DNA of 38,286 bases from Planctomycetota bacterium (GCA_023261445.1 JAHFOX010000004.1:1-38286), one strand, 5' to 3'. Numbered from the stretch's first letter, positions 3-26,678 are shown. Numbers and translations are program-made. The notes: generated by a model from the sequence alone, not told the origin.

Positions 3-248
3 TTCAGGTTTATTGGCGTTTTTGGGAAACCTTTGTTTGCAGGTGTTCTCATGGCAATAGCTGCTATACTATTGCAGAAATATTGCCATATAAGCGTAGC
101 AATATTTCTGGTTATTACTACTTATATTTTGGTTGTTTTGATGACGAAGACGTTTACTCGAAGTGACATTAAATCTATAAAAGAAATACTGAGATATAGG
201 ACAGAGTTCCAAAACAAACAAATAAACGAAGCGGGAGAATTGTTATGA
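3..248 (+). CDS. C-terminal fragment of polysaccharide flippase (Wzx/MATE-like membrane protein), truncated by window start
   Basis: Frame is open to the window edge (FRFIGVFGKPLFAGVLMAIAAILLQKY...); hydrophobic TM segments; stop overlaps the next start (ATGA); glycan-gene context. Confidence 0.55.
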   Translation, partial: FRFIGVFGKPLFAGVLMAIAAILLQKYCHISVAIFLVITTYILVVLMTKTFTRSDIKSIKEILRYRTEFQNKQINEAGELL

Positions 249-1906
249 AGCCTAAAGTATTGGTAATAGGCATAGACGGCGGGACTTTTGATATAATAAA
301 TCCACTGATTAATAAAGGGTTTTTGCCAAATCTTAAGAGGCTTATTGAAAATGGTTCATCGGGGATTCTTCAATCAACTATTCCGCCAGTTTCCCCTGCC
401 GCATGGTCAACATTTATAACCGGGGAAAACCCGGGCTTACATGGGATATATGATTTTTTCGATATATGGCCAAATACATATAAGCTGAGAATCCTGAATG
501 CAAGCATGAGAAAAGGTAAAAGCTTTTGGAAATACGCAGAAGATACCGGCAAAAAGGTATGTCTTATAAATGTTCCATTTACCTTTCCTCCTGAGAAAGT
601 TAATGGAATTATGATTTCGGGGATGGATACACCATCTTACGATTCTGATTTTATGTGTCCAAAGGAGTTGAAGGAGGAGATAGAAAGGCACGTTGGTAAA
701 TATAGGGTAGATACTCATGTATCTGACATTCAAGGATATGAATCAATGGAAGAACATAAGCTTCTCGATATTTTCAAGAAGCATGTTTTTGAGCAGATTG
801 ACATACATGCCAGAACAGCCCTTTACCTCATTAAAAAGGAAGAATGGGACATATTTACCGTTGTCTTCACTTCTACCGACAGGGCTCAGCATCATTACTG
901 GAAATTTTATAAAAATGGCAAAGATCCTTTGTCAAAAGTAATCCCACAGGTATACGAAAAAATTGATAGTTATATTGGTGAAATTATAAAAGCGAGTGGT
1001 CCTGACACTAACGTTATAATCATGTCGGACCACGGCGCAGGACCCATTGAGAGAGTAGTTGTGCTGAATAACTGGCTGGCGGAAAGGGGATACCTTGCGA
1101 CTCAAGCAACCAGCATTAATCATAATTTTAAAATTGGCATCTATAGAACAGCCAAAAAGCTTTTTCCACAGAAGTTTAAAAAGAAACTTAAAAGCGTATT
1201 TCCTGAGATGAAAAGTAAACTTTCAAGTTTCCTGATACTATCCGGGATAAATTGGGGTGCAACTAAAGCCGTTGCTGAAGGATTTTACGGTAGTATTTAT
1301 ATTAACACTTTAGGTGAAAGACCTTTAGGGATTGTAAGCGCAGAAGATTATAATGCTGTATGTGATAAAATAATAAATGAACTCAAGGGCTTAGTTGATC
1401 CCAAAACTGGGGAAAGCCCTATTCGTGGTATTTATAAGAAGAAAGACATTTACTTTGGAAGTTCAATAAACAGTGCACCGGATATAGTCATTCAGCCTGC
1501 GCCTGGCTATCAGTTCGTGGGAGACTTTGTAAAGCTTCAGCATTCAGGCTCACTTAAAGGACAGGAAGTTTTTGTTGATACCATGAGGACTAGGGTATCC
1601 GGCACGCACACTCCGGAAGGAATACTAATAATGCAGGGAGACTCAATAAAGAAGGGAGAAAAAATCGTTGGCGCAGAGATTGGTGACTTGCCTGTAACAA
1701 TTCTTGGCATTTTAGGGATTCCAATACCAGAAGATATGAACGGTAGATTTTTGAAGGATATTTTGAATACGCCATCCGAAGTAAAATATATCTCTGATAA
1801 AGAAGTGACTAAGAAAGCCACTGATTTGCATGACATGAGAGTATATACCAAAGAGGAAGAAGCGGCAATAACCAAACAACTCAGAAATCTTGGTTATATT
1901 GACTAA
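245..1906 (+). CDS. Alkaline phosphatase superfamily protein (type I phosphodiesterase/nucleotide pyrophosphatase-like), no signal peptide
   Basis: Motifs GIDGGTFD (metal/nucleophile), STDRAQHH, MSDHGAGP, GTHTPEG; ATGA overlap with upstream gene. Confidence 0.88.
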   Translation: MKPKVLVIGIDGGTFDIINPLINKGFLPNLKRLIENGSSGILQSTIPPVSPAAWSTFITGENPGLHGIYDFFDIWPNTYKLRILNASMRKGKSFWKYAEDTGKKVCLINVPFTFPPEKVNGIMISGMDTPSYDSDFMCPKELKEEIERHVGKYRVDTHVSDIQGYESMEEHKLLDIFKKHVFEQIDIHARTALYLIKKEEWDIFTVVFTSTDRAQHHYWKFYKNGKDPLSKVIPQVYEKIDSYIGEIIKASGPDTNVIIMSDHGAGPIERVVVLNNWLAERGYLATQATSINHNFKIGIYRTAKKLFPQKFKKKLKSVFPEMKSKLSSFLILSGINWGATKAVAEGFYGSIYINTLGERPLGIVSAEDYNAVCDKIINELKGLVDPKTGESPIRGIYKKKDIYFGSSINSAPDIVIQPAPGYQFVGDFVKLQHSGSLKGQEVFVDTMRTRVSGTHTPEGILIMQGDSIKKGEKIVGAEIGDLPVTILGILGIPIPEDMNGRFLKDILNTPSEVKYISDKEVTKKATDLHDMRVYTKEEEAAITKQLRNLGYID

Positions 1907-1907
1907 T

Positions 1908-3077
1908 ATGAAGATTGCGTATGTATACGGAAGCACTCCACTCAGGCATGGTGACATTACGGATATGGAGAGGGCTGTAAAAGAAAACCGTGACTGGCTG
2001 GGTGATACAGCAAATTATGTTGCCACTCTTGGACACGATGTTTCTATCTTTTTAATGCATAAAAAAATCTCAGGTCATCTGGAGTACAAAGGCGTTAAAT
2101 GGCATGCATATAAACCATTAATTACGCATAAGAAATTAATCGCTGGTAAAGAACCTTGTATGAAAATGTTGAAGGATGTCTTTGAAAGCAAACCTGATAT
2201 TATTCACTTCCAAACTGTTTCATATTGTATAAATTATGCCATTTATGTGCGCAAAGCAAGGCGCAGTGGAATACCTATAGTTGCCCAGTATCATGGAGGC
2301 AGATTTCCGCGTCATTTCTGGGACAGATGGGCACAGGGTTATGCATTAAGAAATTCAGATGCCGCCATTTTTTTGACTAGAGAAAGCAGTGAAATGTATA
2401 TTCAGCGTTATAATCTCAACCCGGAAAAAATCCATATTATTCCTTGTGGCTTTGCCGAGGAATTTTTTCCAATAGATAAAAGTATTGTGCGCAAAAAAAC
2501 AGGGCTACAGGGGAATCCGCTTATAATATGGGTTGCATTCCTGAGAAAGGTTAAGGACCCCATGATATTACTGAGAGCCTTTTCAAATATAGTAAAGAAA
2601 TATCCGGAGGCGAGGCTTTGTTATATAGGAAGCGGCGAGATGGAAGAACCTCTTAAGCGCGCTGTTGAAGAAGATAAATCTATTCAAGGAAAAGTTACTA
2701 TAAAAGGTTTTGTGCCAAAAGATGAGATACCTTCTTACCTAAATTCAGCAGATATATATGTCCTTGCAAGTCATGTTGAACCATTTGCAATTTCTCCAAT
2801 GGAGGCAATGGCATGCGGGGTAGTTCCAATTCTAACTACACTGCCTTGTTTCAAGATAATGACAGATAGTGGTAAATATGGTTTACTATTCGAACCCGGA
2901 TACCAAAAAGGGCTTGAGGATCAGATTGAAAAACTTATAAATGATAGACCGCTTATACAAAGGCTTTCGAGAGAAGTTGCAAAAAGAGCCTCTGATTACT
3001 TTTCATGGAAGGCTTCTGCAGAAAAATTAGTAAACCTTTACAAGAAAGTTTTGAGCGATAGAAAAGGAATTAAATAA
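1908..3077 (+). CDS. Glycosyltransferase family 4 (GT-B)
   Basis: Start trimmed to ATG at 1908 (MKIAYVYGST); C-terminal GT4 pattern ASHVEPFAISPMEAMACGVVPI; 1-nt gap after preceding gene. Confidence 0.87.
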   Translation: MKIAYVYGSTPLRHGDITDMERAVKENRDWLGDTANYVATLGHDVSIFLMHKKISGHLEYKGVKWHAYKPLITHKKLIAGKEPCMKMLKDVFESKPDIIHFQTVSYCINYAIYVRKARRSGIPIVAQYHGGRFPRHFWDRWAQGYALRNSDAAIFLTRESSEMYIQRYNLNPEKIHIIPCGFAEEFFPIDKSIVRKKTGLQGNPLIIWVAFLRKVKDPMILLRAFSNIVKKYPEARLCYIGSGEMEEPLKRAVEEDKSIQGKVTIKGFVPKDEIPSYLNSADIYVLASHVEPFAISPMEAMACGVVPILTTLPCFKIMTDSGKYGLLFEPGYQKGLEDQIEKLINDRPLIQRLSREVAKRASDYFSWKASAEKLVNLYKKVLSDRKGIK

Positions 3078-3078
3078 G

Positions 3079-4773
3079 ATGCAAAGGAAGGTATTTGGTA
3101 TAGGGCTCGATGGCGCTACTTATGACCTGTTAATTCCCTGGTTTAAGAAAGGAAAACTTCCAAATTTATACAAGCTATACTCTAACGGCGCTAAGGGGAC
3201 GCTGGAATCAAGCATTCCATACATGAGTCCAACGGCATGGACATCCTTTATGACAGGCAAAAACCCTGGGAAACATGGCATCTATGACTTTGTGCAGCAT
3301 AAAGATAATAGTTATGAAATATTTTTCTGTAACGCTGCCACAAGAAAGGCAAAGAGCTTATGGAAAATTCTAAGTGAAAACGATAAATGGGTGGGAGTAA
3401 TCAATGTCCCTATGACCTATCCTCCTGAAGAAGTTAAGGGATTCTTGATTTCCGGGATGGAGGCGCCAGGCGTTCAGAGCCAATTCACATACCCCGCCAC
3501 TCTTTATAAAGAACTTAAAGATGCCACAGGGGAGTACAATCTGCACGGTGACTATTACACACGATTCGGTCCAGAGGTTTATCTTAAAAATGTATTTGAG
3601 ACTATAGAAAGCCAGTGCCGCGCTGCAAAGTATCTCCTCAGAAATCATACATGGGACTTTTTTTTCTTTGTTTTTGGTTCTACAGACAGAATTCAGCATT
3701 TTTTCTGGAAATACATTGACCCAAAGCATCCGGGCTATAGAAAGGAAGAAGCAGAAAAATATGGTGATTACATTCTTAAAGTATATGAGGCAGTTGACGG
3801 AGAAATAGGGGAGTTCATGTCAATAGTTCCTAAAGACACCTTAGTATTTGTTATGTCAGATCATGGAGCCGGCGGATACCACAAGATAATACATCTTGAC
3901 AGATGGTTGTCCAGAGAGGGTTATTTAAGATACCAGCTTCAAAAACGAAATATTGGCAAGGAGGTTTTCAAAAAGGTTTATGTGCAGACGAGGAAGTATT
4001 TCCCCAGATTTTTAAAAGACGCCTTGAAAAGCTACTTTCCCGAATTCAGAACAAAGATTGAGTCGAATCTTATCCTGTCAAACATTGATTGGCAAAAGAC
4101 CAGAGTGTTTTCTCTGGGTATAGAGGCAACGCATATCTTTATCAATGAGGAGGGACGATTTCCGATGGGTGTTGTTAAGTCGGGTCGGGAGTATGAGGAA
4201 TTAAGGGCGGAAGTGATAAGGAAGCTTTATGAACTTAAAGACCCTTCTACAGGAGAAAAGGTGGTTGCTAAAATTTATAAAAGGGAAGATATTTTCAGCG
4301 GTGAGTGTGCCCGTAAGGCTGCGGATCTTATAGTATTATGGAAAAACGATACATATATAACAAGACGATCTTATGGCGGAGACTCGGCCTCTTCTGGTAA
4401 TGATATTTTTGATGACAATCTTAAATATGGTGAAATAGGGGAACTGATGGCCCTTGAACAGACAGGAACGCATAGGATTAATGGAATGTTTATTTTATAC
4501 GGCGATATCTTTGACAAGAAAGAAATTCACAGTGCAAAAATAATAGACCTTGCACCGACAATCATACACATGCTGGGATTGCCTGTTCCCTCAGATATGG
4601 ATGGCAGGGTGCTAACTGAGGCATACAAGGAAGATTTCCTGCAAAAGAACCTTATAAAGCACAAAACAAAGAGTGTCAAAGATGTTTCAGGACAGCATGG
4701 TCAAAATGTCTTCTCTCCTGAAGAAGAATCTGTGATCAAAGAGAGATTAAAACGACTTGGATATATTGAATGA
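3079..4773 (+). CDS. Alkaline phosphatase superfamily protein, paralog 2
   Basis: GLDGATYD, STDRIQHFFWKY, MSDHGAGGYHK, GTHRINGMFILYG; collinear with 245..1906. Confidence 0.88.
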   Translation: MQRKVFGIGLDGATYDLLIPWFKKGKLPNLYKLYSNGAKGTLESSIPYMSPTAWTSFMTGKNPGKHGIYDFVQHKDNSYEIFFCNAATRKAKSLWKILSENDKWVGVINVPMTYPPEEVKGFLISGMEAPGVQSQFTYPATLYKELKDATGEYNLHGDYYTRFGPEVYLKNVFETIESQCRAAKYLLRNHTWDFFFFVFGSTDRIQHFFWKYIDPKHPGYRKEEAEKYGDYILKVYEAVDGEIGEFMSIVPKDTLVFVMSDHGAGGYHKIIHLDRWLSREGYLRYQLQKRNIGKEVFKKVYVQTRKYFPRFLKDALKSYFPEFRTKIESNLILSNIDWQKTRVFSLGIEATHIFINEEGRFPMGVVKSGREYEELRAEVIRKLYELKDPSTGEKVVAKIYKREDIFSGECARKAADLIVLWKNDTYITRRSYGGDSASSGNDIFDDNLKYGEIGELMALEQTGTHRINGMFILYGDIFDKKEIHSAKIIDLAPTIIHMLGLPVPSDMDGRVLTEAYKEDFLQKNLIKHKTKSVKDVSGQHGQNVFSPEEESVIKERLKRLGYIE

Positions 4774-4795
4774 CAGGAAAGTATAAAAGATTAAA

Positions 4796-6463
4796 ATGAA
4801 CGTTGAAAAATCTCATAACAAAAAAGTATTTGTCATTGGAATAGATGGGGCGACCTTTGATTTGATAAAACCCTGGATTAACGAAGGAAGACTCCCAAAC
4901 ATTGCAAATATTATGCGTAATGGAGTGCATGGGCTTTTAAAATCAACTATCCATCCGTTGACGGCTCCGGCATGGACATCCTTTATGACAGGCAAGAATC
5001 CCGGTAAACATGGTGTATTTGACTTTATTATAAAAGTTCCCGGCAGCTACAACGTCAAACTGATTGATTCAAGGATGAGAGGCGCTGAAAGTCTGTGGAA
5101 TATATTAAGCTCTAAAGGCAAAAAAGTAGGGGTGATAAATGTTCCGTTGAATTATCCGCCGGAAAAGGTTAACGGATTCCTCATTTCATGGATGGATGCT
5201 CCGGGCACAGACTGTGAATTTACTCACCCTGCAGAACTTCATAATGAGATAAAAAAACATATAGGTAAATATGTTCTTACTGTAAATTTTAACTTGGGGC
5301 TGGATGATTACATTAAAGATATTTTCAATATGATTGAGAACAGGGCTGCTACAGCGAACTATCTGATGAAGGCAAAAGAATGGGATTTTTTTATGGTGTT
5401 GTTCAGCGCCACTGATTATGTGCAGCATGCGTTCTGGAAATACATGGATAAAAATCACCCTGGACATATCCCTGAACTTGCAAAGAAATATGGCAATGTA
5501 ATCAGGGATGTCTATGAAAAGATAGATGAGAAGGTTGGATATCTAATAAACGAATTGCCCGAAGATACCAATCTTTTGATTGTATCAGACCACGGGGCAG
5601 GACCCCTTAAAGGCGTGGTGAATCTTAACAGGTGGCTTGAACAGAAAGGTCTTCTTAGATTTGAGAAGGATAAAAGACCTTTCGCTGTAAAGATTGCGAA
5701 AAAAAGTTTTATATTCCTTAAGAGAAGACTTCCTGTAAGGGTAAAGGGTTTGCTGAAATCTATGATTCCGGAGGCAAGAGATATGCTCGAATCTAAGTTC
5801 CTTAGCTCTTCTATAGACTGGGAAAACACCAAGGCGTTTGCATACGGAGCTTATGGCAATATTTGGATAAATTTGAAAAGCAGAGAAGCTAACGGCATTG
5901 TAGAACCTTCGGAATTGCATGCATTGGAGGACTACATCTGCGCGGAACTCTTAAAACTTACAGACAATAAAGGTCAGAAGGTTGTAGAAAAGGTCTATAA
6001 AAAGGAAGAACTGTATTGGGGAGATTTCACTGACAGAGCGCCCGACCTCATAGTCAGGTGGGTTGATTACGCATATCACAGCAGGCAAAGGTTTGGTGAG
6101 GAAGAGAAGGAAATATTTATGGATACTCAAAAAATGCCGATGACCAATCTTGAGATGAACGGCTTTCACAAAATGGACGGTATATTTATTGCCAGCGGTG
6201 CTGGAATAAGAAAAGGTGTTGAGATTTCTGGAGCAGAGATAATAGACATGGCTCCTACGATACTTTCTATTATTGGACTGCCAATACCAGAAGATATGGA
6301 TGGTAAAATGTTGAATGATATATTTGAAAGTGAGTGTAATAAGAAAGGTGAAGTTGTGACAGAAGGCGTAGTTTCAGGCAGAAAAAAGATTTCTGAAGAT
6401 GGATACTCGGAATCAGAGTCTAAAAAGGTAGAGGAAAGGCTTAGAAATCTTGGGTATCTTTAG
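4796..6463 (+). CDS. Alkaline phosphatase superfamily protein, paralog 3
   Basis: GIDGATFD, ATDYVQHAFWKY, VSDHGAGPLKG, GFHKMDGIFIASG; collinear with the other two. Confidence 0.88.
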   Translation: MNVEKSHNKKVFVIGIDGATFDLIKPWINEGRLPNIANIMRNGVHGLLKSTIHPLTAPAWTSFMTGKNPGKHGVFDFIIKVPGSYNVKLIDSRMRGAESLWNILSSKGKKVGVINVPLNYPPEKVNGFLISWMDAPGTDCEFTHPAELHNEIKKHIGKYVLTVNFNLGLDDYIKDIFNMIENRAATANYLMKAKEWDFFMVLFSATDYVQHAFWKYMDKNHPGHIPELAKKYGNVIRDVYEKIDEKVGYLINELPEDTNLLIVSDHGAGPLKGVVNLNRWLEQKGLLRFEKDKRPFAVKIAKKSFIFLKRRLPVRVKGLLKSMIPEARDMLESKFLSSSIDWENTKAFAYGAYGNIWINLKSREANGIVEPSELHALEDYICAELLKLTDNKGQKVVEKVYKKEELYWGDFTDRAPDLIVRWVDYAYHSRQRFGEEEKEIFMDTQKMPMTNLEMNGFHKMDGIFIASGAGIRKGVEISGAEIIDMAPTILSIIGLPIPEDMDGKMLNDIFESECNKKGEVVTEGVVSGRKKISEDGYSESESKKVEERLRNLGYL

Positions 6464-6543: not shown

Positions 6544-7599
6544 CTATTGTTTCGCTTTTGAAATAATCTGCTTGAGTGTATTGTATGCCTTTTTTTTGTT
6601 GCCATTCCCATAAAGTAATCCCATATCACTAAAAAGACCTTCTGTGCTGTCAAATATTTTTAACCAGAATATTGCCTTAACACCTTTTTCTCTTGATATT
6701 TTTGCCAGACTTATAAGGTCTTTTGACTGTTTCTCTTCATTAGATAAATATGGCTTGATTCCTTTAGGGAATTTGAAAGTCACACCGGGAACACCAACCT
6801 CACTAAGCCATACAGGGACATTAGTATTTTCTTCTTCCAATACTTTATTGATTCTATCAATTAAATCAGTAAAAGTAATGGGGTACGGAGTGTCGCTGGT
6901 ATCTATAGGAAAATAATTATGAATGTCAAATATATCGAATGAATGGCTTTTTATAATTTGCCTAGCCATGTTCATATACTCATCTATTCCATAAGGAATT
7001 GCTTTTGGTCTGGATGCCCCGCAGGCAAGCCCAGCCGAAAGCACCTTTATATCAGGGTTTGCCTTCTTTACTGTCTTGTATGCTGCCTGAAGAAGTGTTA
7101 TATAATCATTGATGCTTCCATGCCAAAAGGCTTTGGCATTGGGTTCGTTTTCAATCTGTATGTAGTTTATCTTTCCTTTGTAATGGGTAACGAGATTGGT
7201 AATGAAATCCTCGTAGTCGCCAATTTTTCTGGGTAGAGAGCTAAAATGATAACCTTTTCTTCCAAGTTCTGATACTTCACTGCTCCCCCATGACGATATT
7301 GCCTTAATTGTAAAGAGTATCTCTATATTATGTTTTCTTGCAAGTCTAACCATTTCATCGTAACCATCCCACTGGTAACCACCTTTTTTAGGCTCTGCAA
7401 CCTGCCAGAAAAGCGACACCCGCACAATATCCATGCCTAAATCTTCCATGATTTTCAATTCCTTCTCAAACTCTCCTGGATTTTGTTTAATTATATGACT
7501 GCCAAAATGTATTTTATCTTCGGCAGAGATAATCATAGGGATTGTTAATAATAGAAAGAAGTTGCACAAAACTGTAAAAATAATATATTGTTTCTTCAT
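6544..7599 (-). CDS. Secreted glycoside hydrolase, (beta/alpha)8 clan A type (GH5/GH39/PslG-like)
   Basis: N-terminal signal peptide; QIENEPNAK (acid/base, NEP) and VWLSEVGVPG (nucleophile E) motifs. Confidence 0.75.
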   Translation of the reverse strand: MKKQYIIFTVLCNFFLLLTIPMIISAEDKIHFGSHIIKQNPGEFEKELKIMEDLGMDIVRVSLFWQVAEPKKGGYQWDGYDEMVRLARKHNIEILFTIKAISSWGSSEVSELGRKGYHFSSLPRKIGDYEDFITNLVTHYKGKINYIQIENEPNAKAFWHGSINDYITLLQAAYKTVKKANPDIKVLSAGLACGASRPKAIPYGIDEYMNMARQIIKSHSFDIFDIHNYFPIDTSDTPYPITFTDLIDRINKVLEEENTNVPVWLSEVGVPGVTFKFPKGIKPYLSNEEKQSKDLISLAKISREKGVKAIFWLKIFDSTEGLFSDMGLLYGNGNKKKAYNTLKQIISKAKQ

Positions 7600-7619: not shown

Positions 7620-8618
7620 TTATTGTTTTTTAGTACTTTCTGTGCCAGTGGATGTAAAAGGATTCGATATAAAACCATAAACACTCCCAAGCCCTATGGC
7701 TGTTGCTCTAAGCATAAGGAAAAATGGCGCAAGCAAGGCAACGCCAATATCTCTCCTAATTGAGAAGTTTAAAAAAGGAATAGCTGAGATTAAGAATAAA
7801 AATATAAATGTTAAGAATGCATAAAAAAACAAGAAATGAAATAGGCTTAAAATTAGTGTGACTAACAATAAGAGTGAAAGTAATACCTGAAATTTCAGCA
7901 TTTTTGGAGTATAAGTATCAGTCACAATCTTTTCTGGGAATTTTTTGTATACAATTACTCTCCAGAAACCCCTCCAGAACTTAAGTCTAAAATATTTTAA
8001 GATGCTGTTAGGGTGTCCGCTATGGTATACCTTTGCATTGGGATTGAAAATCATTCGATATTTTGTTTTGGACAATCTGTATGAGAGTTCCGTATCCTCA
8101 TTATTAGCCTTCGGGAAATTCGTATTAAATCCTCCATACTCGATAAAAATATTTCGCCGAAAGGCGGCGGAATATGTATCAATCATATCTACAGAATTTA
8201 ATTTTGAAAGCACCTCGTATCGTTCCTCAAACTCCGTCTGCACAAAGCGTATGATTAGATTGCCTTTCCCCCTTTTGTACGCTCCTTTTACTGCTATAAT
8301 TTCCTTGTCCTTAAAAGGCGAGATCATTTCTTCTATCCAGTTGGGCTCTGCTATACAATCAGCGTCTGTGAAGATTATTATTTCTCCTGATGAGTTTTTA
8401 GCCCCAAGATTTCTGGCGGTTGCAGGACCCGAATTTTCTTGCCCAAAAAGCTTAACGGGATATCTTTTTGTTAATTCTGGAGTTGAATCGGTTGAACCAT
8501 CGTCAACCACTATCACCTCATAAGATTCCTTTTGTATTGTCTGGTTTAGCAAAGAGTTTAAACACGATTCTATGGTGTCCTCCTCATTATATGCAGGGAT
8601 GATTACTGACACTAACAT
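7620..8618 (-). CDS. Glycosyltransferase family 2 with C-terminal TM segments
   Basis: VSVIIPAYNEEDTIESCLNSLLNQT, VVDDGSTDST, FTDADC; hydrophobic C-terminus. Confidence 0.9.
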   Translation of the reverse strand: MLVSVIIPAYNEEDTIESCLNSLLNQTIQKESYEVIVVDDGSTDSTPELTKRYPVKLFGQENSGPATARNLGAKNSSGEIIIFTDADCIAEPNWIEEMISPFKDKEIIAVKGAYKRGKGNLIIRFVQTEFEERYEVLSKLNSVDMIDTYSAAFRRNIFIEYGGFNTNFPKANNEDTELSYRLSKTKYRMIFNPNAKVYHSGHPNSILKYFRLKFWRGFWRVIVYKKFPEKIVTDTYTPKMLKFQVLLSLLLLVTLILSLFHFLFFYAFLTFIFLFLISAIPFLNFSIRRDIGVALLAPFFLMLRATAIGLGSVYGFISNPFTSTGTESTKKQ

Positions 8619-10084
8619 TTCTTAGCCTCATTGCCAGGAGAACTTCCTTTTATCAGGTATTTGATAAATGTCCTGAATGCCTTGAATTTCCTTACAATTT
8701 CATCAGGAGTTCTTACTATTTGATATAACTTGGAGAATACATAGCTGGGACGCAAATAGAACTTTTTTCTTGCAAAGTCGCAAAATTTCACAAGTTCATC
8801 AGGGGAGAGTTCTTCTGTGCCAACGACTGAATTGTGTAGCCCTTCTTCAGTTAACCACTTTGAATAATCCTCGGTTTTCAGAAACTTTTTTTCTTTAGCC
8901 CATTCATAGGCTTCTGTTCCCGGATATACCATTATAGGATAAAATTGGGCGGTGTCAGGGTTAAGATGCATTGCAAGATCCAAAGTTTTTAATAGGGATT
9001 CTTTGGTTTCTCCTGGATTTCCTACCATGAAGCAACCATGCACTAGAACTTTTGCTTTTTTTGCATCTTCCATGAACTTATACATCATTTCCAGTTTCAT
9101 GCCTTTGTTCATGTCGTTTAGTATACACTGGTCGCCACTCTCAAAACCAACGCACAACGATCGGCAGCCGGCATTTCTCATCAATCGCAACGTTTCATAA
9201 TCAACATCTGCCCTTGCGTTTGCCGTCCACCGTATTTTAATACCTCTTTTCATGATAAGCTCCGAGATATCCCGGCACCTCTTCTTGTTTACGGTAAATG
9301 TGTCGTCCTCTATAAAGATGCCCTTTACTTCAGGAAAATTCTCCTTTATGTATTCAAATTCTTCGACCACACTTTCAGGACTTCTTTGCCTGTACCCTCG
9401 CCCCTGAAGGGTCTGTGGAATTACGCAGAACGAACATTTGTTAGGGCATCCGCGGCCAGTAATTAATGTTATCATAGGGTAAAAGGAATTGGGATTAAAA
9501 TAGTGCATGGTATTAAGATGTTTCTTGATTACCTTACTAATAAAGGGAAGTTTGTCTATTTCCTTTATAAACGGTCTGCTTGGATTGTGAGTTACTCCTT
9601 TCTCTTTCCGATAACTTAAGCCAGCGATTGATTCAATAGAAGATTTTTTGCCAATTGCGCTAGATAACTCGAGTAATGTATAGTCATATTCATGTCGGGC
9701 TATTGCATCAAAATGACTACTAAACTTAAATGTCTCGTCTGGAAGCGCTGACACATGCGTTCCTACGAGTGTTATAAATGAGTCTGGCAGTGCCTTTTTG
9801 ATGTTCTCTGCGACATGCAAATCATTAAATATGCTTGGGGTACTGGTATCAATAACAACTAGTTGCGGATTAAAATGTGTAGATATGTCTAATACCTCTT
9901 TTAACGAGAGTCCTTCAGCGGGGGCATCTATAAGTTTTATGTTAAAGCCAGCATCTTCAAGTACGCCAGCTGCATACGCTAACCATATTGGGTAATAGAG
10001 AGTACCACTTTTTGTAACGGCAGGACTCCTCTGTGCCCTTGAAAATTTCTTGAAATATGGTGGATTTAGTAACAGAACATTCAT
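8612..10084 (-). CDS. B12-binding domain radical SAM protein
   Basis: N-terminal cobalamin-binding-like domain; CPNKCSFC (CxxxCxxC) radical SAM motif; IRWTANARADVD, VGFESG. Confidence 0.9.
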   Translation of the reverse strand: MNVLLLNPPYFKKFSRAQRSPAVTKSGTLYYPIWLAYAAGVLEDAGFNIKLIDAPAEGLSLKEVLDISTHFNPQLVVIDTSTPSIFNDLHVAENIKKALPDSFITLVGTHVSALPDETFKFSSHFDAIARHEYDYTLLELSSAIGKKSSIESIAGLSYRKEKGVTHNPSRPFIKEIDKLPFISKVIKKHLNTMHYFNPNSFYPMITLITGRGCPNKCSFCVIPQTLQGRGYRQRSPESVVEEFEYIKENFPEVKGIFIEDDTFTVNKKRCRDISELIMKRGIKIRWTANARADVDYETLRLMRNAGCRSLCVGFESGDQCILNDMNKGMKLEMMYKFMEDAKKAKVLVHGCFMVGNPGETKESLLKTLDLAMHLNPDTAQFYPIMVYPGTEAYEWAKEKKFLKTEDYSKWLTEEGLHNSVVGTEELSPDELVKFCDFARKKFYLRPSYVFSKLYQIVRTPDEIVRKFKAFRTFIKYLIKGSSPGNEAKKC

Positions 10085-10168: not shown

Positions 10169-11377
10169 TCAGGCAAAGACAGATAGTATTTCCTTTTTTA
10201 TGCTGTTAAACGTTGTTTCAATATTAAACATTTTCAACGCCCTTTCTCTCCCTCTTTTGCCCATCTCAATGGCTTCTTGCGGGTTCTTCAGGAGATAGTC
10301 TATACTCAGCGCCAGATTGTCTGCATTGCTTGGCGTGTAAAGCAAGCCTGTTTCACCATGGATTATTATTTCAGGTGCAGCGCCAAAACGAGGTGCTATT
10401 ACAGGTTTGGAGGAAGCCATAGCTTCGATAATAGTGAGTCCAAAAGGTTCGGGCTTTGTAGATGCACTCACAACGATATCTAATGCATGCATTACATCCC
10501 TTATATTATCTACATGACCTATAAAATGGACATGTTCTTTCAAACCAAGCTGTTCCGATAATTCCTTTAACTCCTCGCCATATACAGGGTCTTCCCAGAA
10601 TAGTCCTCCTATTATATAAAAATTAGCCCTGTTCGTTACTTTTGCCGCTGCCTTTATAAATAGGTACTGTCCCTTCCATCTCATGAGTCTGCCTATTACA
10701 CCAACTGACGGAAGACTACTCATTTTCATGTAATTTTCTCTGAATATACTTATGTGAGATGTTGTGGTGAATGAATTTATGTCAGTACCGTTGTATATCA
10801 TGATAATCTTTTCTGAATTAACTCCAATAGAGATAAGTGTTTCCTTAACGGCATTTGATATGGCGATTATTCTTACAGGTATATTGAATAACAGTTTGAT
10901 TATAAATAATGTAACAGGATTAAAATCTTCTTTTATTAACAAATCCTGAACATGCTGGACAGCGTGTATTCCAAATAATTTACACGGCACACTGCATAGT
11001 ATCCCCGCTTTAAGGGTGTTAAGGTAAATAACGTCGGGTTTCAAGCTCCTTAGTATTTTTATAAAATTAAAGAGGAATCTGACTATTTCTAAAAAACTTT
11101 TTAAAACATATTTAAGGATTTGGAATACCGAAGCACTTCTGATCATATTCGTGTCAAGGAATGACGACCGCAAATTTATTGGTATTACAGTAAATCCTTC
11201 GGTTTTTAGTTTCCCAAAGAAGGGCCCCCACGGCGGGCAAGCCACTTGTAGTTCAATGTCTTTGGGATCAATATGTTTAAAGATATTGATAAGATTTATC
11301 TCGCTACCTCCAAGTTCTGTATGGTGATCAATAGCAAGTAGTTTTATCTTTTTCGGCGGTTCTTTGTGGTAATTCAT
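10169..11377 (-). CDS. Glycosyltransferase family 4
   Basis: LAIDHHTELGGSEINLINI N-domain; PEPFGLTIIEAMASSKPVIAPRFGAAPEII GT4 motif. Confidence 0.88.
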   Translation of the reverse strand: MNYHKEPPKKIKLLAIDHHTELGGSEINLINIFKHIDPKDIELQVACPPWGPFFGKLKTEGFTVIPINLRSSFLDTNMIRSASVFQILKYVLKSFLEIVRFLFNFIKILRSLKPDVIYLNTLKAGILCSVPCKLFGIHAVQHVQDLLIKEDFNPVTLFIIKLLFNIPVRIIAISNAVKETLISIGVNSEKIIMIYNGTDINSFTTTSHISIFRENYMKMSSLPSVGVIGRLMRWKGQYLFIKAAAKVTNRANFYIIGGLFWEDPVYGEELKELSEQLGLKEHVHFIGHVDNIRDVMHALDIVVSASTKPEPFGLTIIEAMASSKPVIAPRFGAAPEIIIHGETGLLYTPSNADNLALSIDYLLKNPQEAIEMGKRGRERALKMFNIETTFNSIKKEILSVFA

Positions 11378-12884
11378 AAAGAGCTTTCTCTGTATTTCGT
11401 GTGATTACTGAAACCGCAAGGAGCATTCCTATGGTAGTTGATAATACCCTGTTTTCAAAGAAAAGGCCAAAGGTCAGACCTCCAACCGCCTGCGCTATCA
11501 ATGCACCTGTTAATCCTATAGATATAATTCTGAGAGTGGAATCTTTTGTTTTTAAAAGAGGTCTTATTATTTTTATAATGTTGGCTATAAACCACAAAAA
11601 AAGCATAAACCCAAATGGACCAACAGCGATTAAGACCTCTAAATATATGTCATGCGCAAGGGTCGGGTCTTGACAAACACTCCCAACATAATCAGGCAAA
11701 ACATCTGGTAAGGCTCCAACACCTATCCCGAAAATGGGATTTCTTTTAAATATCTCCCAAATTCCTTGCCATATAGCAATCCTGTAGGTTTCTCCAACGT
11801 CTGGTTTATATTGGGTTTCAAAGAGATCAATAAACCTCTCGAAAGGTGCAGTAAAGTTGTCAACGATATCCCGTTGCGATAAATTCATTACGAAGAACAT
11901 TATAAAAGTACAAATGGTTAGGAGTGTCACTATAACAATTGACCAATAACTTAGCCGTCGCATCTCTTTTGAAAATATCCAGAAAAAGAAAATGCCCGCC
12001 GCCATTCCCAAAAGCGGTCCCCTTGAACCAGATACTAACGATCCTACTATAAATACAAGTATCGAACCCAATACGATTGTTTTTAACCATTTGTTTTTTA
12101 GTGTAAAAAAAAGACCGAAAGCAATTAATACTGGGTAATTCAAGTACTCACCTGTTTCCAGGGCTGAGGTATCAACAGATTCAGCCCTTCCTTCTTCTGA
12201 GAATTTTTCCATAATACCAGTAGCGCTTAAAAGAATGCCGCCGATTAGCCAGCCAATAAAAACAAAGTTGAGGCTCTTTTTTGTCTTCACAGTATCTATA
12301 ATTATCAAAACTATAATAACGCTGTATACTAGTTGAACTAGCTTTGACACCGTTCCTGACTTTGAGTAAGTCCATGCCATGGAAAGTACGCACCACCAGA
12401 AAAAGAATAGAAAAGATGTTTCTGCTCCGGTAGATTCAAATTTAAGCCCTTTCCTTTCAACAAATATCCTGTTGAGCGCCCATCCTGTAATGGCGGGTAA
12501 AATAAAGAAGTCGGCTATCCGTATTTCGGCTCCGCTAATATCAATGATTGTATAGTCTTCACTCCTGTAAGGAAGAAACATTGTGAAAAAGAATATACCT
12601 AAAACAGGTTTCACGAAACAAGCTACCATGATCGCAAGCCCTATTATTCCAAATATGTAATAGGGTGCATAATCAGGCAGGATATTATGTATGTCTATGA
12701 CTTCACCAAATTCCCATTGAAAGACTCCGGCAAAAGGAATGGATAAGCCGAAGCCCAGGGCTATCAAAATAGTAAAAATAATGCCCCTGAGTGAGAGTCC
12801 TCCAAAAAAGTCCTGCCTGTTCCTTGTTAAATAATAGAATATTTTACTCATTTCATTACCTGTAAAAACAACGTTACTTCTCAA
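11328..12884 (-). CDS. O-antigen ligase / polymerase family membrane protein (WaaL-like)
   Basis: Multiple TM segments; periplasmic-loop pattern NPIFGIGVGALPDV...AHDIYLEVLIAVGPFGFMLFL typical of Wzy_C/O-antigen ligase. Confidence 0.82.
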   Translation of the reverse strand: MRSNVVFTGNEMSKIFYYLTRNRQDFFGGLSLRGIIFTILIALGFGLSIPFAGVFQWEFGEVIDIHNILPDYAPYYIFGIIGLAIMVACFVKPVLGIFFFTMFLPYRSEDYTIIDISGAEIRIADFFILPAITGWALNRIFVERKGLKFESTGAETSFLFFFWWCVLSMAWTYSKSGTVSKLVQLVYSVIIVLIIIDTVKTKKSLNFVFIGWLIGGILLSATGIMEKFSEEGRAESVDTSALETGEYLNYPVLIAFGLFFTLKNKWLKTIVLGSILVFIVGSLVSGSRGPLLGMAAGIFFFWIFSKEMRRLSYWSIVIVTLLTICTFIMFFVMNLSQRDIVDNFTAPFERFIDLFETQYKPDVGETYRIAIWQGIWEIFKRNPIFGIGVGALPDVLPDYVGSVCQDPTLAHDIYLEVLIAVGPFGFMLFLWFIANIIKIIRPLLKTKDSTLRIISIGLTGALIAQAVGGLTFGLFFENRVLSTTIGMLLAVSVITRNTEKALYELPQRTAEKDKTTCY

Positions 12885-13143
12885 ATAGCTATGTTTTATA
12901 AATAAAAATTTAACACTAATAGTATTGTAAAAGCAATTTTATTTTAATAAGGTAATGACGTATGGCTTAGCCCCATTTCCCTTTCAATTTTTGTTGCGTA
13001 GCATTCGATTCTGTTTTCTTTGTCATTTCATAATAAATACTTTTTTAGTTGATATTACGACGTTACAGAATATAAAATATAAAACCAGTTATTTTGTAAT
13101 AACAATATTATACGCCAAAATATTTAACAGAAAGTGTTTCCTA

Positions 13144-13926
13144 ATGAAATGGGTCTTTATTCCATTTAAATTTATTGGAAGTGTCGTCAACAAATTCATA
13201 AGAGAACTGGGAAGGATGGCGTGCTTTCTGGTTGAGGCATTTTTCTGGATGTTGTTCCCGCCATACTTAATACAAAGGGTTATTAGACGGATAAATTTTA
13301 TTGGTGTAAAGACGACTTCAGTTATTATTCTGACAGGTTCGTTTACAGGGATGGTTCTGGCTTTGCAGATTTATTACGTTTTAGCCAAGTTTGGAGCTGA
13401 AGCAAGCCTGGGACCTGTAGTGGCTTTGTCACTGATTCGGGAATTAGGCCCGGTTATTTCTGCATTAATGGTTACAGGGTGCGCAGGTTCTGCATTAACG
13501 GCAGAAATTGGTATTATGAGAATATCCGAGCAAATTGATGCCCTCGATGCTATGGCATTGAATCCTTACAAATATTTAATAGTGCCTAGTCTGTTGGCAG
13601 GTGTTATATCGCTTCCGCTTTTGAATGCTATATTTGTTACGGTTGGCGTTTTTGGTGGGTATCTTGTGGGTGTAGGGCTTACGAGCGTGTCCAGTGGAAC
13701 ATATTTTGGCGGTATACAAGATTTTGTTGAGGCGCGAGATATACTGGAAGGGATATACAAATCGCTGAGTTTCGGTGTTCTGATAACATGGGTTAGTTGT
13801 TATAAGGGGTATTATACAGGATACGGCGCAGAGGGCGTAAGCAAGTCAACCACTCAGGCTGTGGTGCTTTCATCGGTTATTATCCTTGTATGGGATTATT
13901 TTATGACGTCACTGCTGGTGTCTTAA
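13144..13926 (+). CDS. mlaE: MlaE-family ABC transporter permease (lipid asymmetry maintenance)
   Basis: Start trimmed to ATG 13144 (260 aa); [55 protein letters not shown]. Confidence 0.92.
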
Positions 13927-13939
13927 TTTAAGGGTACGC

Positions 13940-14686
13940 ATGATTGAGGTTGTTGATTTATACAAAGATTTTAATGGCTACGAGGTGCTTCGGGGCATTA
14001 ACTTAAAGGTGGAAGAAGGACAAACCCTTGCTTTGATTGGAGGCAGCGGCAAGGGAAAATCCGTGTTGCTAAAACACATCATCGGTCTGATAAAACCAGA
14101 TCGCGGCAGAATATTGATAGATAATCATGATATTAGCAAGTTGAGAGGAAAGGCGCTTAAACGATTAAAAGAACGGTGCGGCATAGTATTTCAGGGCGGC
14201 GCCCTTTTCGATTCTCTTACTGTATTTGAAAATGTTGCATTTCCTCTCAGAGAAAAGACCAAAATGAAAGCCTCACAAATTCAGGATACGGTATTCAGGG
14301 AACTGTCCAGAGTGGGTCTCTCGGGAGCCGAAAATAAATACCCTGCTGAGATAAGCGGCGGTATGAAAAAGCGGGTCGCACTTGCGCGATGTCTTGTTAT
14401 GAGTCCCGAGATAGTTCTTTTTGATGAACCTACAACCGGTCTTGATCCGTTGATAGGTAAAGCGATACACAAATTAATAAGAGATTGTCAGAAGAGTCTC
14501 AATTATACCGCAATTATAGTTACGCATGAAATTCCGGAGATTTTTTCTCTGGTAGACCGTGTTGCCATGTTGTTTAATGGGAAGATACTTGCAATAGGGA
14601 CTCCGGAAGAAATACAGGCGTCGAAAGATCCTGTGGTTCACCAGTTTATTCACGGAGAACTGGAAGGTCCTATTTCCATACAATAA
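13940..14686 (+). CDS. mlaF: ABC transporter ATP-binding protein MlaF
   Basis: Walker A GGSGKGKS, signature [14 protein letters not shown], Walker [15 protein letters not shown]; follows mlaE. Confidence 0.93.
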
Positions 14687-14715
14687 ATGTATTTCAATAA
14701 AAGGCGGCTAAAATT

Positions 14716-15162
14716 ATGAAGAAATTTGATGTTGAAATTGCTGTTGGTATTTTTGTTTTTTTTGGTATACTCTGTCTAGGTTATATATCTGTAAAACTGG
14801 GCAAGATTAATCTGATAGGTGACCATTGTTATCCGGTAAAGGCAGTCTTTAGCACTGTTAAGGGACTTAAAAAGGATACTGTAGTTGAAATATCAGGAGT
14901 TGAAGTAGGCAAGGTTAAGGATATTAAACTTGATAATTATGAGGCAGTTGTTACTTTACTGATTCGAAACGGTATAGAACTGCAGGAAGACGCCATTGCA
15001 TCCATTCGTACCAAGGGACTTATGGGAGAAAAGTATGTGGAGATTATGCCCGGAGGGTCAGATAATGTGGTACAGCCCGGTGGCACATTACGCGAGACAG
15101 AGCCGCCAATTGATTTGGAAAAGTTAATAGGAAATTTTGTATTTGGGAAGGTAAAGGAATAG
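14716..15162 (+). CDS. mlaD: MlaD (MCE domain) substrate-binding protein
   Basis: Single N-terminal TM; MCE signature VKGLKKDTVVEISGVEVGKVKDI, GLMGEKYVEI. Confidence 0.92.
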   Translation: MKKFDVEIAVGIFVFFGILCLGYISVKLGKINLIGDHCYPVKAVFSTVKGLKKDTVVEISGVEVGKVKDIKLDNYEAVVTLLIRNGIELQEDAIASIRTKGLMGEKYVEIMPGGSDNVVQPGGTLRETEPPIDLEKLIGNFVFGKVKE

Positions 15163-15166
15163 AGAA

Positions 15167-15793
15167 ATGAAATGTAGAAAAATGATGCTGGGAATAGGTG
15201 TTGGTATGTGTGTTTTGTTATTTACGTCTGCCTTTTCTTTGGCAATAGAACCGGGAAAACTGCTTATGGAAACAGTTGACAAAGGGTTTATTGTTCTTAA
15301 GAATCCATCGCTGGGCGGAGTGGAAAAGACGCAGGAACGCAGGCAGGCGCTATGGAAAGAGATTTCATTCGTTTTCAACTTTGAAGAGATGTCCAAAAGG
15401 GCGCTTGGTCAGCACTGGAAAAAACGTTCATCAGAGGAAAAGAAAGAATTTGTGGAGTTATTTACCAATATTCTCAAAGACGCCTATATCGGGAAAACCG
15501 ATACTTATAACGGCGAAAAAATCGTTCTTCTAAGGGAAAAGCAAGATAGTGAATACGCCGTTGTGCAAACAAAGTTTGTCACAAAAAACGGCACAGAAAT
15601 AGCCGTTGATTATAGTATGCTTAATAATGGCGGGGAGTGGAAGATATACGATGTTGTTATTGAAGGGGTGAGTATGATCAATAATTACCGCAGCCAATTT
15701 TATAACATCTTGCTTAAGTCTCCATACGAAACTCTCGTTAAAAGAATGAAAGAGAAGAAAACCGAAGGCGAGACTGCAACCGCTGCCAAGTAA
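15167..15793 (+). CDS. mlaC: MlaC periplasmic phospholipid-binding protein
   Basis: Signal peptide; FNFEEMSKRALGQHWK, VVIEGVSMINNYRSQF. Confidence 0.92.
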   Translation: MKCRKMMLGIGVGMCVLLFTSAFSLAIEPGKLLMETVDKGFIVLKNPSLGGVEKTQERRQALWKEISFVFNFEEMSKRALGQHWKKRSSEEKKEFVELFTNILKDAYIGKTDTYNGEKIVLLREKQDSEYAVVQTKFVTKNGTEIAVDYSMLNNGGEWKIYDVVIEGVSMINNYRSQFYNILLKSPYETLVKRMKEKKTEGETATAAK

Positions 15794-15846
15794 AAAAATA
15801 TCACAATAATTACACTAACTATTTAACAGGTTAACAGGAGTTAAAA

Positions 15847-16902
15847 ATGAGAAAATCTATTTTTTCGTCGGTCTTTTTTGTTTTGGTAGTGTGTATGTGC
15901 ATGTGTTTTGTATTGGCTGATGACCCAACGCCTACGGTAAATCAGTCTGATGAAACGGCAGGCGATAGCAAAGGTACTGCTCCGTACGCAGTTAGTGAAG
16001 ATAAGGAATTAAAAGGCACACATGTAGAATTAAAAACTCCCGCTCCTGTGGAACAGCCTATCGAAACGGCAAATAAAAACAAGGGTATAGCTGAGACTCC
16101 TGCAGTTAGTGAATCTAAAGAACCGGAAGGTACTAAAGATACTAATGTAGAGTCAAATACTCCTGCTCCTGTGGAACAGGCTGTTAATGCCGTTAATGCA
16201 GAAGGCGAAAGCAAAAGTACCTCAACCGTATATGCAGTAAATGAAGACGTAGAATTGGGAGATAACAATCTGAAGATAGAAGCCCCTTCCGTTAGAGACC
16301 CGTTCCAGCCTTATAATCGAGGCGTCTTTGTCTTCAATGACAAGGCATACTATTACGTGATTAGACCAGTTTATAAAGGGTACAATAAAGTGGTTCCTGA
16401 AAAGGCGCGGTTAAGTGTCAGGAACTTCTTCTCGAACATCAGAATGCCAGGCCGCTTTTTGAATTGTCTCTTTCAGGGCAAAATAAACGGCGCTGCTACA
16501 GAGCTGGCCCGTTTTGTTATTAATAGCACTCTTGGGTTAGGTGGGCTTTTCGATCCTGCAAAATCATTACTTCATCTGGATAAACAGAATGAAGACTTCG
16601 GACAGACTCTAGCCAAAGCCAATATGGGTCCCGGCTTTTATATCGAATGGCCTTTCTTAGGATCGTCTAATGTTCGTGACACAATTGGATATATTGGAGA
16701 TTTAGCAATGGATCCTCTGTCAATACTATCGTTTATTATCAACCCGCTAATAGCTGGAGGGACCAGTGGTTACAACACTTTCAATGATATTTCTGTAGAT
16801 GGCGGGGATACCTATGAGAGCGTAACGAAATCAGCCGTTGATCCGTACATTGCACTCCAGGACGCTTATCAGCAAAATCGAATTAAGAAAATAAAGGAAT
16901 AA
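15847..16902 (+). CDS. mlaA: MlaA/VacJ lipoprotein-family protein with extended repeat-containing N-terminal linker
   Basis: Signal peptide; DPFQPYNRGVFVFND, LGLGGLFDPA, DFGQTLAKANMGPGFYIEWPFLGSSNVRDTIG; operon context. Confidence 0.93.
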   Translation: MRKSIFSSVFFVLVVCMCMCFVLADDPTPTVNQSDETAGDSKGTAPYAVSEDKELKGTHVELKTPAPVEQPIETANKNKGIAETPAVSESKEPEGTKDTNVESNTPAPVEQAVNAVNAEGESKSTSTVYAVNEDVELGDNNLKIEAPSVRDPFQPYNRGVFVFNDKAYYYVIRPVYKGYNKVVPEKARLSVRNFFSNIRMPGRFLNCLFQGKINGAATELARFVINSTLGLGGLFDPAKSLLHLDKQNEDFGQTLAKANMGPGFYIEWPFLGSSNVRDTIGYIGDLAMDPLSILSFIINPLIAGGTSGYNTFNDISVDGGDTYESVTKSAVDPYIALQDAYQQNRIKKIKE

Positions 16903-24891: not shown

Positions 24892-26571
24892 ATGAAGAAA
24901 AGAATTATTTTTTGTTTGTCTTTTTGTGTAGTAGTGGCATTTTTTGGGTTTATTTTTTCTGCGAAAGGATATGCAATACCAGCGGCTCCAATTTTACACC
25001 CATTGATACAACTAGACGGTATAATCATAAATGCAAGACAATGGGGCGACGAATCTTGTCATGGCTGGGAAACAGAAGATGGATTTACTATTATATTCGA
25101 TAAAGGTTTGAATAGCTGGGCGTATGCAATAAATGACACAGATGGGGAACTGATTAGTTCTTCAAGAGTTGTCGGAAGGGATGATCTGCCAGATGATTGC
25201 CTTCCTCACGTAAGGAAATCAGGGCAGGCACGTTCAAAGATTGTTAGGCGGATGACTACAAAAGAAGCTTCTGCGGTGTTATTTCGAGCGGAAAATAACA
25301 AATTGGGTGACGAAAGTCATCAAAAAGTTGTGCCATCTAGTGGAACAGCTAATATTCCCGTTATTCTTATAAATTTTAAAGACACCTCTGCTACTTACAC
25401 AACCGGAAACTTTAATTCCCTTCTTTTTGGCACAGGTAACCACAGTATGAAGGATTATTATGAGGAGGTCTCCTATGGTAAATTTAGTGTTTCTGCTGGT
25501 CCCAGCGGTGTAGTTGGGTGGTACACAGCGTCGAAAGAACATGATTATTATGGAGAAAATGATTCCAGTGGTAACGATAAATGGCCTGGAGACCTTGTAT
25601 ATGAAGCGGTAGCGGCGGCAGATACGAATGTTGATTTTTCCGCTTATGATATGGATAACGACGGTTACGTGGATGCAGTAAATGTAATTCATCAGGGTAC
25701 AGATGAAGCGGCAGGCGGGAAAGAAACGGATATATGGTCTCATCGTTGGACTCTCAGTAGCGCCAAATTCTTTGGAAATAGCCACTATGGTGCATACACG
25801 ACAAACGACAAAAACTCAAAAGGAAATTATGTAAAAGTTGATGATTACACCTTAGAAGCTGAAAAACACTCCGATGGGAAACAAGAGACGGTTGGAGTTT
25901 TTGCCCATGAATACGGGCATGCACTGGGACTTCCCGATCTCTATGATACAGATTATAGTTCGGAAGGCAATGGTGATTGGACTATAATGGCATCCGGGTC
26001 GTATAACTACGTGAGTGTATATGGAGATCGTCCAGCGCACATGGATGCAGGATGTAAATACTATCTCAAATGGGTAACGCCAACACAGGTAACAGGAACC
26101 ATGGAGAATGAAACCATAACTGAGGCATCTTCTACTGCTGATGTATATAAACTGGTTAATAAAAACCTATCCTCAAGTGAATACTTTTTGGTGGAGAACA
26201 GGCAGAAGACAGGATTTGATGTGGGATTACCCGGTTCAGGGCTCCTTATTTGGCATATAGATCAAAAAACTGTTTTCAAAAATATCTCAACAAACAGTGT
26301 AAATGACAATGAATGCTATCCGCCTTCTTCATGTAGTAGCAAGCATTATGGTGTTGCCTTAGTACAGGCTGATAATAATTGGGATTTGGAAAAGGGTAAT
26401 AACTGGGGAGATAACGGAGATACCTATCCGGGCTCAAAAAATAACACTAAATTTACAAGCACTTCTTCCCCGAATAGCAAACTATATAATGGAAGCAATA
26501 GTCTTATCAGTATCACAAACATAAGTGCTTCTGGTACCAATATGACCGCTACGCTCTCGGTGGGGAATTAA
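24892..26571 (+). CDS. Secreted M6-family metalloprotease (immune inhibitor A-like), paralog 1
   Basis: Signal peptide; HEYGHALGLPDLYD; Met-turn WTIMASGS; aspartate-rich DMDNDGYVD; RBS aaaggaggc. Confidence 0.9.
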   Translation: MKKRIIFCLSFCVVVAFFGFIFSAKGYAIPAAPILHPLIQLDGIIINARQWGDESCHGWETEDGFTIIFDKGLNSWAYAINDTDGELISSSRVVGRDDLPDDCLPHVRKSGQARSKIVRRMTTKEASAVLFRAENNKLGDESHQKVVPSSGTANIPVILINFKDTSATYTTGNFNSLLFGTGNHSMKDYYEEVSYGKFSVSAGPSGVVGWYTASKEHDYYGENDSSGNDKWPGDLVYEAVAAADTNVDFSAYDMDNDGYVDAVNVIHQGTDEAAGGKETDIWSHRWTLSSAKFFGNSHYGAYTTNDKNSKGNYVKVDDYTLEAEKHSDGKQETVGVFAHEYGHALGLPDLYDTDYSSEGNGDWTIMASGSYNYVSVYGDRPAHMDAGCKYYLKWVTPTQVTGTMENETITEASSTADVYKLVNKNLSSSEYFLVENRQKTGFDVGLPGSGLLIWHIDQKTVFKNISTNSVNDNECYPPSSCSSKHYGVALVQADNNWDLEKGNNWGDNGDTYPGSKNNTKFTSTSSPNSKLYNGSNSLISITNISASGTNMTATLSVGN

Positions 26572-26678
26572 GTAGATTTGAAATGAAATTACTTTATCCT
26601 TGTGTAGCTTATGTGAATTTTTGTAATTTCCTTTGCAATGATTGACTATCTATAAAAATTTTATTAAATGGAGGTTGC

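Follow-up and report, generated by a model that had tools for sequence, protein, structure and literature searches.

In Halobacterium salinarum, Agl30 and Agl31 (VNG1056C and VNG1057C), encoded in the aglB cluster, are AlkP-superfamily glycan sulfotransferases (PMC11980604). On the basis of deletion and of expression in Haloferax, Zaretsky and colleagues found that Agl30 and the soluble Agl31 sulfate sugars of the N-glycan, and that the acceptor is apparently the assembled dolichol-phosphate-linked tetrasaccharide (PMC11980604). By analogy, this pair may be taken as the closest precedent for three AlkP-fold enzymes of a Planctomycetota bacterium, here called A, B, and C, that would act in the cytosol ahead of a flippase. 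The likeness, drawn from published descriptions, lies in the AlkP fold and in the placement within a glycan cluster, around aglB for Agl30 and Agl31 (PMC11980604) and with a glycosyltransferase and a flippase for A, B, and C; Agl31 is moreover soluble, and A, B, and C are predicted to be cytosolic. The systems differ in that Agl30 and Agl31 serve an archaeal N-glycan and have sulfatases as their nearest structures, and in that Agl31 was assigned to an arylsulfatase or arylsulfatase-like family and not to PF01663, the family of A, B, and C. An earlier note on this DNA had called the module undescribed. For the kind as a whole that description is not supported: Halobacterium already offers AlkP-superfamily sulfotransferases encoded in a glycan cluster (PMC11980604), and PF01663 enzymes without a leader occur commonly in both Planctomycetota and archaea.

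The stretch of DNA analyzed here (the window; 38,286 nucleotides) covers the opening 38 kb of a contig 51.6 kb long, which belongs to a 2.08-Mb draft genome that is 91% complete. Because HZS_alpha (hydrazine synthase) was found in 27 of 39 related genomes, we assigned the order to Brocadiales, the anammox bacteria. HZS_alpha was absent from the window's own draft genome and from a genome of the same genus (G001), so the organism is probably a non-anammox member of the family.

The genes for A (positions 245 to 1906, 553 amino acids), B (3079 to 4773, 564 amino acids), and C (4796 to 6463, 555 amino acids) lie on the plus strand around a GT4 glycosyltransferase gene (1908 to 3077, plus strand; PF00534, E = 1.4e-32, and PF13439) whose ortholog occupies the equivalent place in G001. 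They follow directly on a Wzx/MATE-type flippase (3 to 248, plus strand), of which only the C-terminal 81 amino acids are seen, since the window starts at the contig end. The fragment matches the end of the whole flippase of G001 (L047:14575-16059, 494 amino acids; PF01943, E = 3e-21). The tight junctions reported earlier were found again, with an ATGA overlap at 245 and 1-nucleotide gaps at 1907 and 3078; a 22-nucleotide gap precedes C. Downstream, a convergent glycan operon on the minus strand encodes a glycoside-hydrolase-like TIM barrel that appears to carry a signal peptide (6544 to 7599; PF00150, E = 7e-9), a GT2 glycosyltransferase (7620 to 8618; PF00535, E = 2e-38), an HpnJ-like B12-binding radical SAM protein (8612 to 10084; PF04055/PF02310, with 437 bits to TIGR03471, below the 578 cutoff of that model), a second GT4 glycosyltransferase (10169 to 11377; PF00534, E = 1e-36), and a Wzy/O-antigen-ligase-like polymerase (11328 to 12884; PF04932, E = 6e-20). 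The gene order in G001 runs Wza-like export protein, EF-hand protein, ketoacyl synthase, Wzz, lipid-A-type acyltransferase, Wzx, A, GT4, and B. A second G001 contig (L053) carries the end of the C ortholog beside the glycoside hydrolase, GT2, radical SAM, GT4, and Wzy genes, the same flanking genes as in the window. This gene content points to a Wzx/Wzy-type surface-glycan locus. An exosortase (PEP-CTERM) locus, hinted at by weak TIGR03097 and TIGR03088 matches, was rejected because a search of the genome gave no PF09721 exosortase. Elsewhere in the window, a likely Mla phospholipid-transport operon (MlaE, MlaF, MlaD, MlaC, and MlaA-like; 12955 to 16902), recognized from sequence alone, adjoins the glycan operon, and a tandem pair of secreted M6-type (HEYGHALG) metalloprotease-like paralogs, 559 and 561 amino acids long, is encoded at 24892 to 28364.

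All three open reading frames are intact PF01663 members, with scores of 155 (A; E = 4.4e-45), 135 (B; E = 6.5e-39), and 168 bits (C; E = 7.2e-49) against a curated cutoff of 23. They are certainly leaderless: in-frame codons between the preceding stop and the start number only 15 (A), 8 (B), and 3 (C), and a hydropathy scan found no segment in any of the three hydrophobic enough for a transmembrane helix. Aligned relatives likewise have no more than about 20 residues ahead of the first metal-binding Asp. Each protein retains all seven AlkP/NPP-type catalytic residues (D11, S50, D212, H216, D262, H263, and H455 in A; D11, S50, D203, H207, D261, H262, and H465 in B; D17, T56, D207, H211, D265, H266, and H458 in C). 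The motif list of the earlier note needs three corrections: C reads ATDYVQH and not [ST]TD, the nucleophile lies outside DG[GA]T, and a conserved C-terminal LxxLGY tail had been overlooked. Alignment with PhnA placed the nucleophile at the Ser/Thr of [ST]xxAW (S50, S50, and T56), a position fixed by comparing chain 3szy of PhnA with the mutant chain 3t02, in which exactly that column changes from Thr to Ala. In an alignment of 23 Brocadiales and haloarchaeal members, the six metal ligands (D; D..H; DH; H) were invariant and position 56 (C numbering) was Ser or Thr in every sequence. The column of the NPP/PhnA phosphate-contact Asn, which we take to be N111 of Xac NPP, after the TG..P..HG motif, held Phe or Trp in all 23.

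An AlphaFold2 model of C, run on a seven-sequence alignment (pLDDT 79.9, pTM 0.83), gave an NPP-like fold, and its best Foldseek matches were Xac NPP (7n1s, E = 3e-17), ENPP enzymes, and PhnA, with E values from 3e-17 to 1e-14 at 12 to 16% identity. NPP enzymes (Xac NPP 2gsn/7n1s and the ENPP family) share with A, B, and C the PF01663 domain, the metal ligands, and the nucleophile position; A, B, and C differ from them in the missing leader, a helical insert near residues 285 to 340, the LGY tail, and the replacement of Asn by Phe or Trp. PhnA (3szy, 1ei6) was the best sequence-profile match in the PDB (E = 3e-11) and shares the core, whereas it is a C-P bond hydrolase without insert or tail and is only 14 to 15% identical in structural alignment. 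Fold and motifs suit hydrolases and transferases equally.

We then compared gene neighborhoods. In ten related genomes, with flippases defined by Pfam, a Wzx flippase lay within 10 kb of 10 of 14 loci encoding full-length AlkPs, across 8 genera, versus 0.33 expected by chance; the nominal P of 2e-14 exaggerates the enrichment because the loci are related to one another. No flippase was detected in 20 random 20-kb regions with a flippase model built from the case loci. The Pfam-based count supersedes a phylum-wide neighbor scan that recorded a flippase at 5 of 20 loci; that scan was weak, since its flippase model had been built on loci of Brocadiales and genes in GC-rich genomes were hidden by spurious long open reading frames. 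The earlier proposal that the AlkP-fold enzymes are cytosolic and serve a glycan pathway was supported: of the two outcomes that would have refuted it, a lack of conserved linkage and a hidden signal peptide, neither was seen, and the flippase linkage is conserved well beyond chance. One full-length group adjoins the housekeeping genes pyrF/trpG without a flippase. In the haloarchaeon Natronorubrum, one AlkP gene and a gene annotated as an oligosaccharide flippase overlap, with glycosyltransferases and a sulfatase-like protein with an LGY end nearby. Many loci encode two to four deeply diverged AlkP paralogs, and recurrent neighbors include GT9, PIG-L deacetylase, GNAT, PQQ beta-propeller, and B12 radical SAM proteins, the last resembling the HpnJ-like protein of the window's glycan operon. 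In anammox relatives, PKS-like synthase modules (KS, AT, ACP, KR, DH, and phosphopantetheinyl transferase) lie directly upstream of Wzx-AlkP-GT clusters (L046:13015-19999, L040:17881-19998, and L044:16591-18969), which suggests a polyketide-type lipid or glycolipid product. Another AlkP/flippase neighborhood contains a 757-amino-acid open reading frame with a C-terminal PF05635 (23S rRNA intervening-sequence-protein) fusion (L043:6262-8535).

A census of C termini and a profile HMM defined the overlooked tail. LxxLGY plus up to three residues ends 44 of 48 full-length AlkPs, including A (YTKEEEAAITKQLRNLGYID, 1844 to 1903), B (FSPEEESVIKERLKRLGYIE, 4711 to 4770), and C (YSESESKKVEERLRNLGYL, 6404 to 6460), all on the plus strand; in the model of C, the tail is a helix behind a low-confidence linker. 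Most of the order also encodes a short paralog of about 465 amino acids, mostly without the tail. At 10 of 16 Brocadiales loci examined, an APS-kinase-like PF01583 gene lies next to the short paralog, and 6 of these 10 kinase-like proteins carry the same tail (L121:5813-6421, L122:5940-6521, L123:6017-6625, L124:4821-5432, L126:6885-7493, and L132:5920-6522), as does one from another planctomycete family (L070:5522-6199); the short AlkP beside these tailed kinase-like proteins is tail-less. Alignments to ordinary CysC proteins mostly end near residue 189, ahead of the tail. When the HMM, trained on AlkP tails only, was run against 1152 open-reading-frame ends, these seven kinases were the top non-AlkP matches (E = 1.6e-10 to 3.6e-7), and the tail of B is very similar to the kinase tails, for example that of L121:5813-6421. 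In genome G008, a short AlkP without a kinase neighbor carries the tail itself. This switching of the tail between adjacent genes suggests that AlkP and kinase act together, and the tail is possibly an exchangeable docking peptide. The idea that the tail tags proteins throughout the window's genome was rejected: pattern scans gave A and B alone among convincing proteins, C being missed because it ends in TAG, outside the pattern. Two proteins of about 318 amino acids (L071:7300-8259 and L076:8300-9253) combine LDACRYD and DHGELLGE motifs and a weak PF00884 match with an LGY tail; they lie beside PF01663 AlkPs and may represent a further AlkP-fold glycan family.

Our preferred reading, held tentatively, is that A, B, and C add sulfate, or less likely phosphate, to a lipid-linked glycan before Wzx acts. 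They would be two-metal transferases of AlkP fold that work in the cytosol for a Wzx/Wzy-type surface-glycan pathway. With its Ser/Thr nucleophile and D/D/H/D/H/H metal site, each would attach an anionic ester to one particular sugar in a lipid-linked oligosaccharide built by the GT4 and other glycosyltransferases. The neighboring Wzx would then flip the decorated unit outward, and the disordered LGY tail would probably let each enzyme dock on a shared partner or on a site at the membrane. The group added would most likely be sulfate from an APS/PAPS-type donor, with phosphate or a phospho-substituent next; sulfate leads on account of the Agl30/Agl31 precedent and the APS-kinase-like pairing. 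Of the phosphoryl chemistry proposed earlier, the AlkP-fold family holds, but a phosphoryl substrate does not follow, sulfate transfer now being at least as likely. The window's genome encodes an ATP sulfurylase. Two observations speak against sulfate: APS kinase was not found in that 91%-complete genome, although it is present in G001, and the trio has no adjacent kinase gene.

The first alternative is that A, B, and C are phospho-transferases adding phosphate, phosphoethanolamine, or phosphoglycerol in the cytosol before flipping, in analogy to GPI synthesis. There, PIG-N, PIG-G, and PIG-O are three AlkP-superfamily paralogs, ethanolamine-phosphate transferases of a pathway that also has a GT4 and a PIG-L deacetylase. 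PF01663 is a family of phosphodiesterase-type enzymes, the closest structures work on phosphodiesters or phosphonates, and PIG-L deacetylase and GT4 genes recur near the relatives. However, the GPI enzymes are membrane embedded and lumenal, whereas A, B, and C are soluble and leaderless; the phosphate-contact Asn is replaced by Phe or Trp, and the APS-kinase-like pairing indicates sulfate. We consider this role unlikely. The same low probability attaches to hydrolases, cytosolic phosphodiesterases or phosphatases that would trim or recycle nucleotide sugars, sugar phosphates, or by-products such as PAP. The top fold matches are indeed nucleotide pyrophosphatases/phosphodiesterases and phosphonoacetate hydrolase, but the two to four deeply diverged paralogs of many loci are easier to reconcile with tailoring specific to each acceptor than with a single recycling step, and the Asn replacement speaks against ordinary NPP chemistry.

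A phosphomutase of the independent phosphoglycerate mutase or phosphopentomutase type, supplying sugar-1-phosphates for nucleotide-sugar synthesis, appears improbable. Both known AlkP-fold mutases are cytosolic with a Ser/Thr nucleophile, but no mutase was among the 50 best structural matches, and sequence matches to mutases were confined to the C-terminal metal region. Sulfatases or alkaline phosphatases working outside the cell, hinted at by a sub-cutoff PF00884 match of C (E = 0.001), are very improbable and largely excluded, as A, B, C, and aligned relatives have no leader and the formylglycine motif (C/S-x-P-x-R) is absent from the alignment of A, B, and C, which reads [ST]xxAW at that position.

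The trio is old and maintained. A is 90% identical to its G001 ortholog with a dN/dS of 0.09, which argues against a chance set of open reading frames; within the genus, dN/dS was also 0.09 for the GT4 and 0.17 for the tail of C, and the trio is under purifying selection. A tree of 52 sequences gave A, B, and C long separate branches, with B and C only weakly sister, so recent tandem duplication was rejected; sets of paralogs differ between genera. Family matches occurred in 37 of 39 relatives of the order and in 75 of 246 genomes of the phylum (E ≤ 1e-40), and none among phages or viral contigs, so a viral origin was rejected. Full-length homologs on haloarchaeal replicons and plasmids (29 to 31% identity) are annotated just as "alkaline phosphatase family protein." We take the homologs to be COG3379-type "alkaline phosphatase family proteins" of archaea and bacteria. 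The literature searched yielded no characterized COG3379-type member and nothing relevant on COG3379 or on this locus type, and as far as that literature goes the family is widespread and uncharacterized.

Three points are new: a flippase linkage that is conserved among relatives, the diagnostic replacement of Asn, and an exchangeable tail shared with APS kinases, which offers a direct route to partners and to testing the idea. A broader proposal, which we regard as doubtful, is that leaderless PF01663 proteins are widespread unrecognized cytosolic glycan sulfotransferases of Planctomycetota and archaea, held in a sulfation complex with a dedicated APS-kinase-like protein by an exchangeable LGY docking tail on either partner. 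Anammox granules have been reported to contain sulfated glycosaminoglycan-like extracellular polymers (as cited in PMC10483923). Such polymers are also reported from further granular sludges, yet known sulfotransferase references give few matches in genomes of this kind, and the authors suspected that the true sulfotransferases differ from known ones (PMC10483923). A, B, and C are concrete candidates for the missing glycan sulfotransferases of such genomes. Because the fold is usually taken for that of a hydrolase, whole arrays are annotated "alkaline phosphatase" although they may build glycans rather than degrade them. If our reading is true, enzymes like A, B, and C would provide the class that is still missing to explain how anammox-type bacteria make their sulfated slime.
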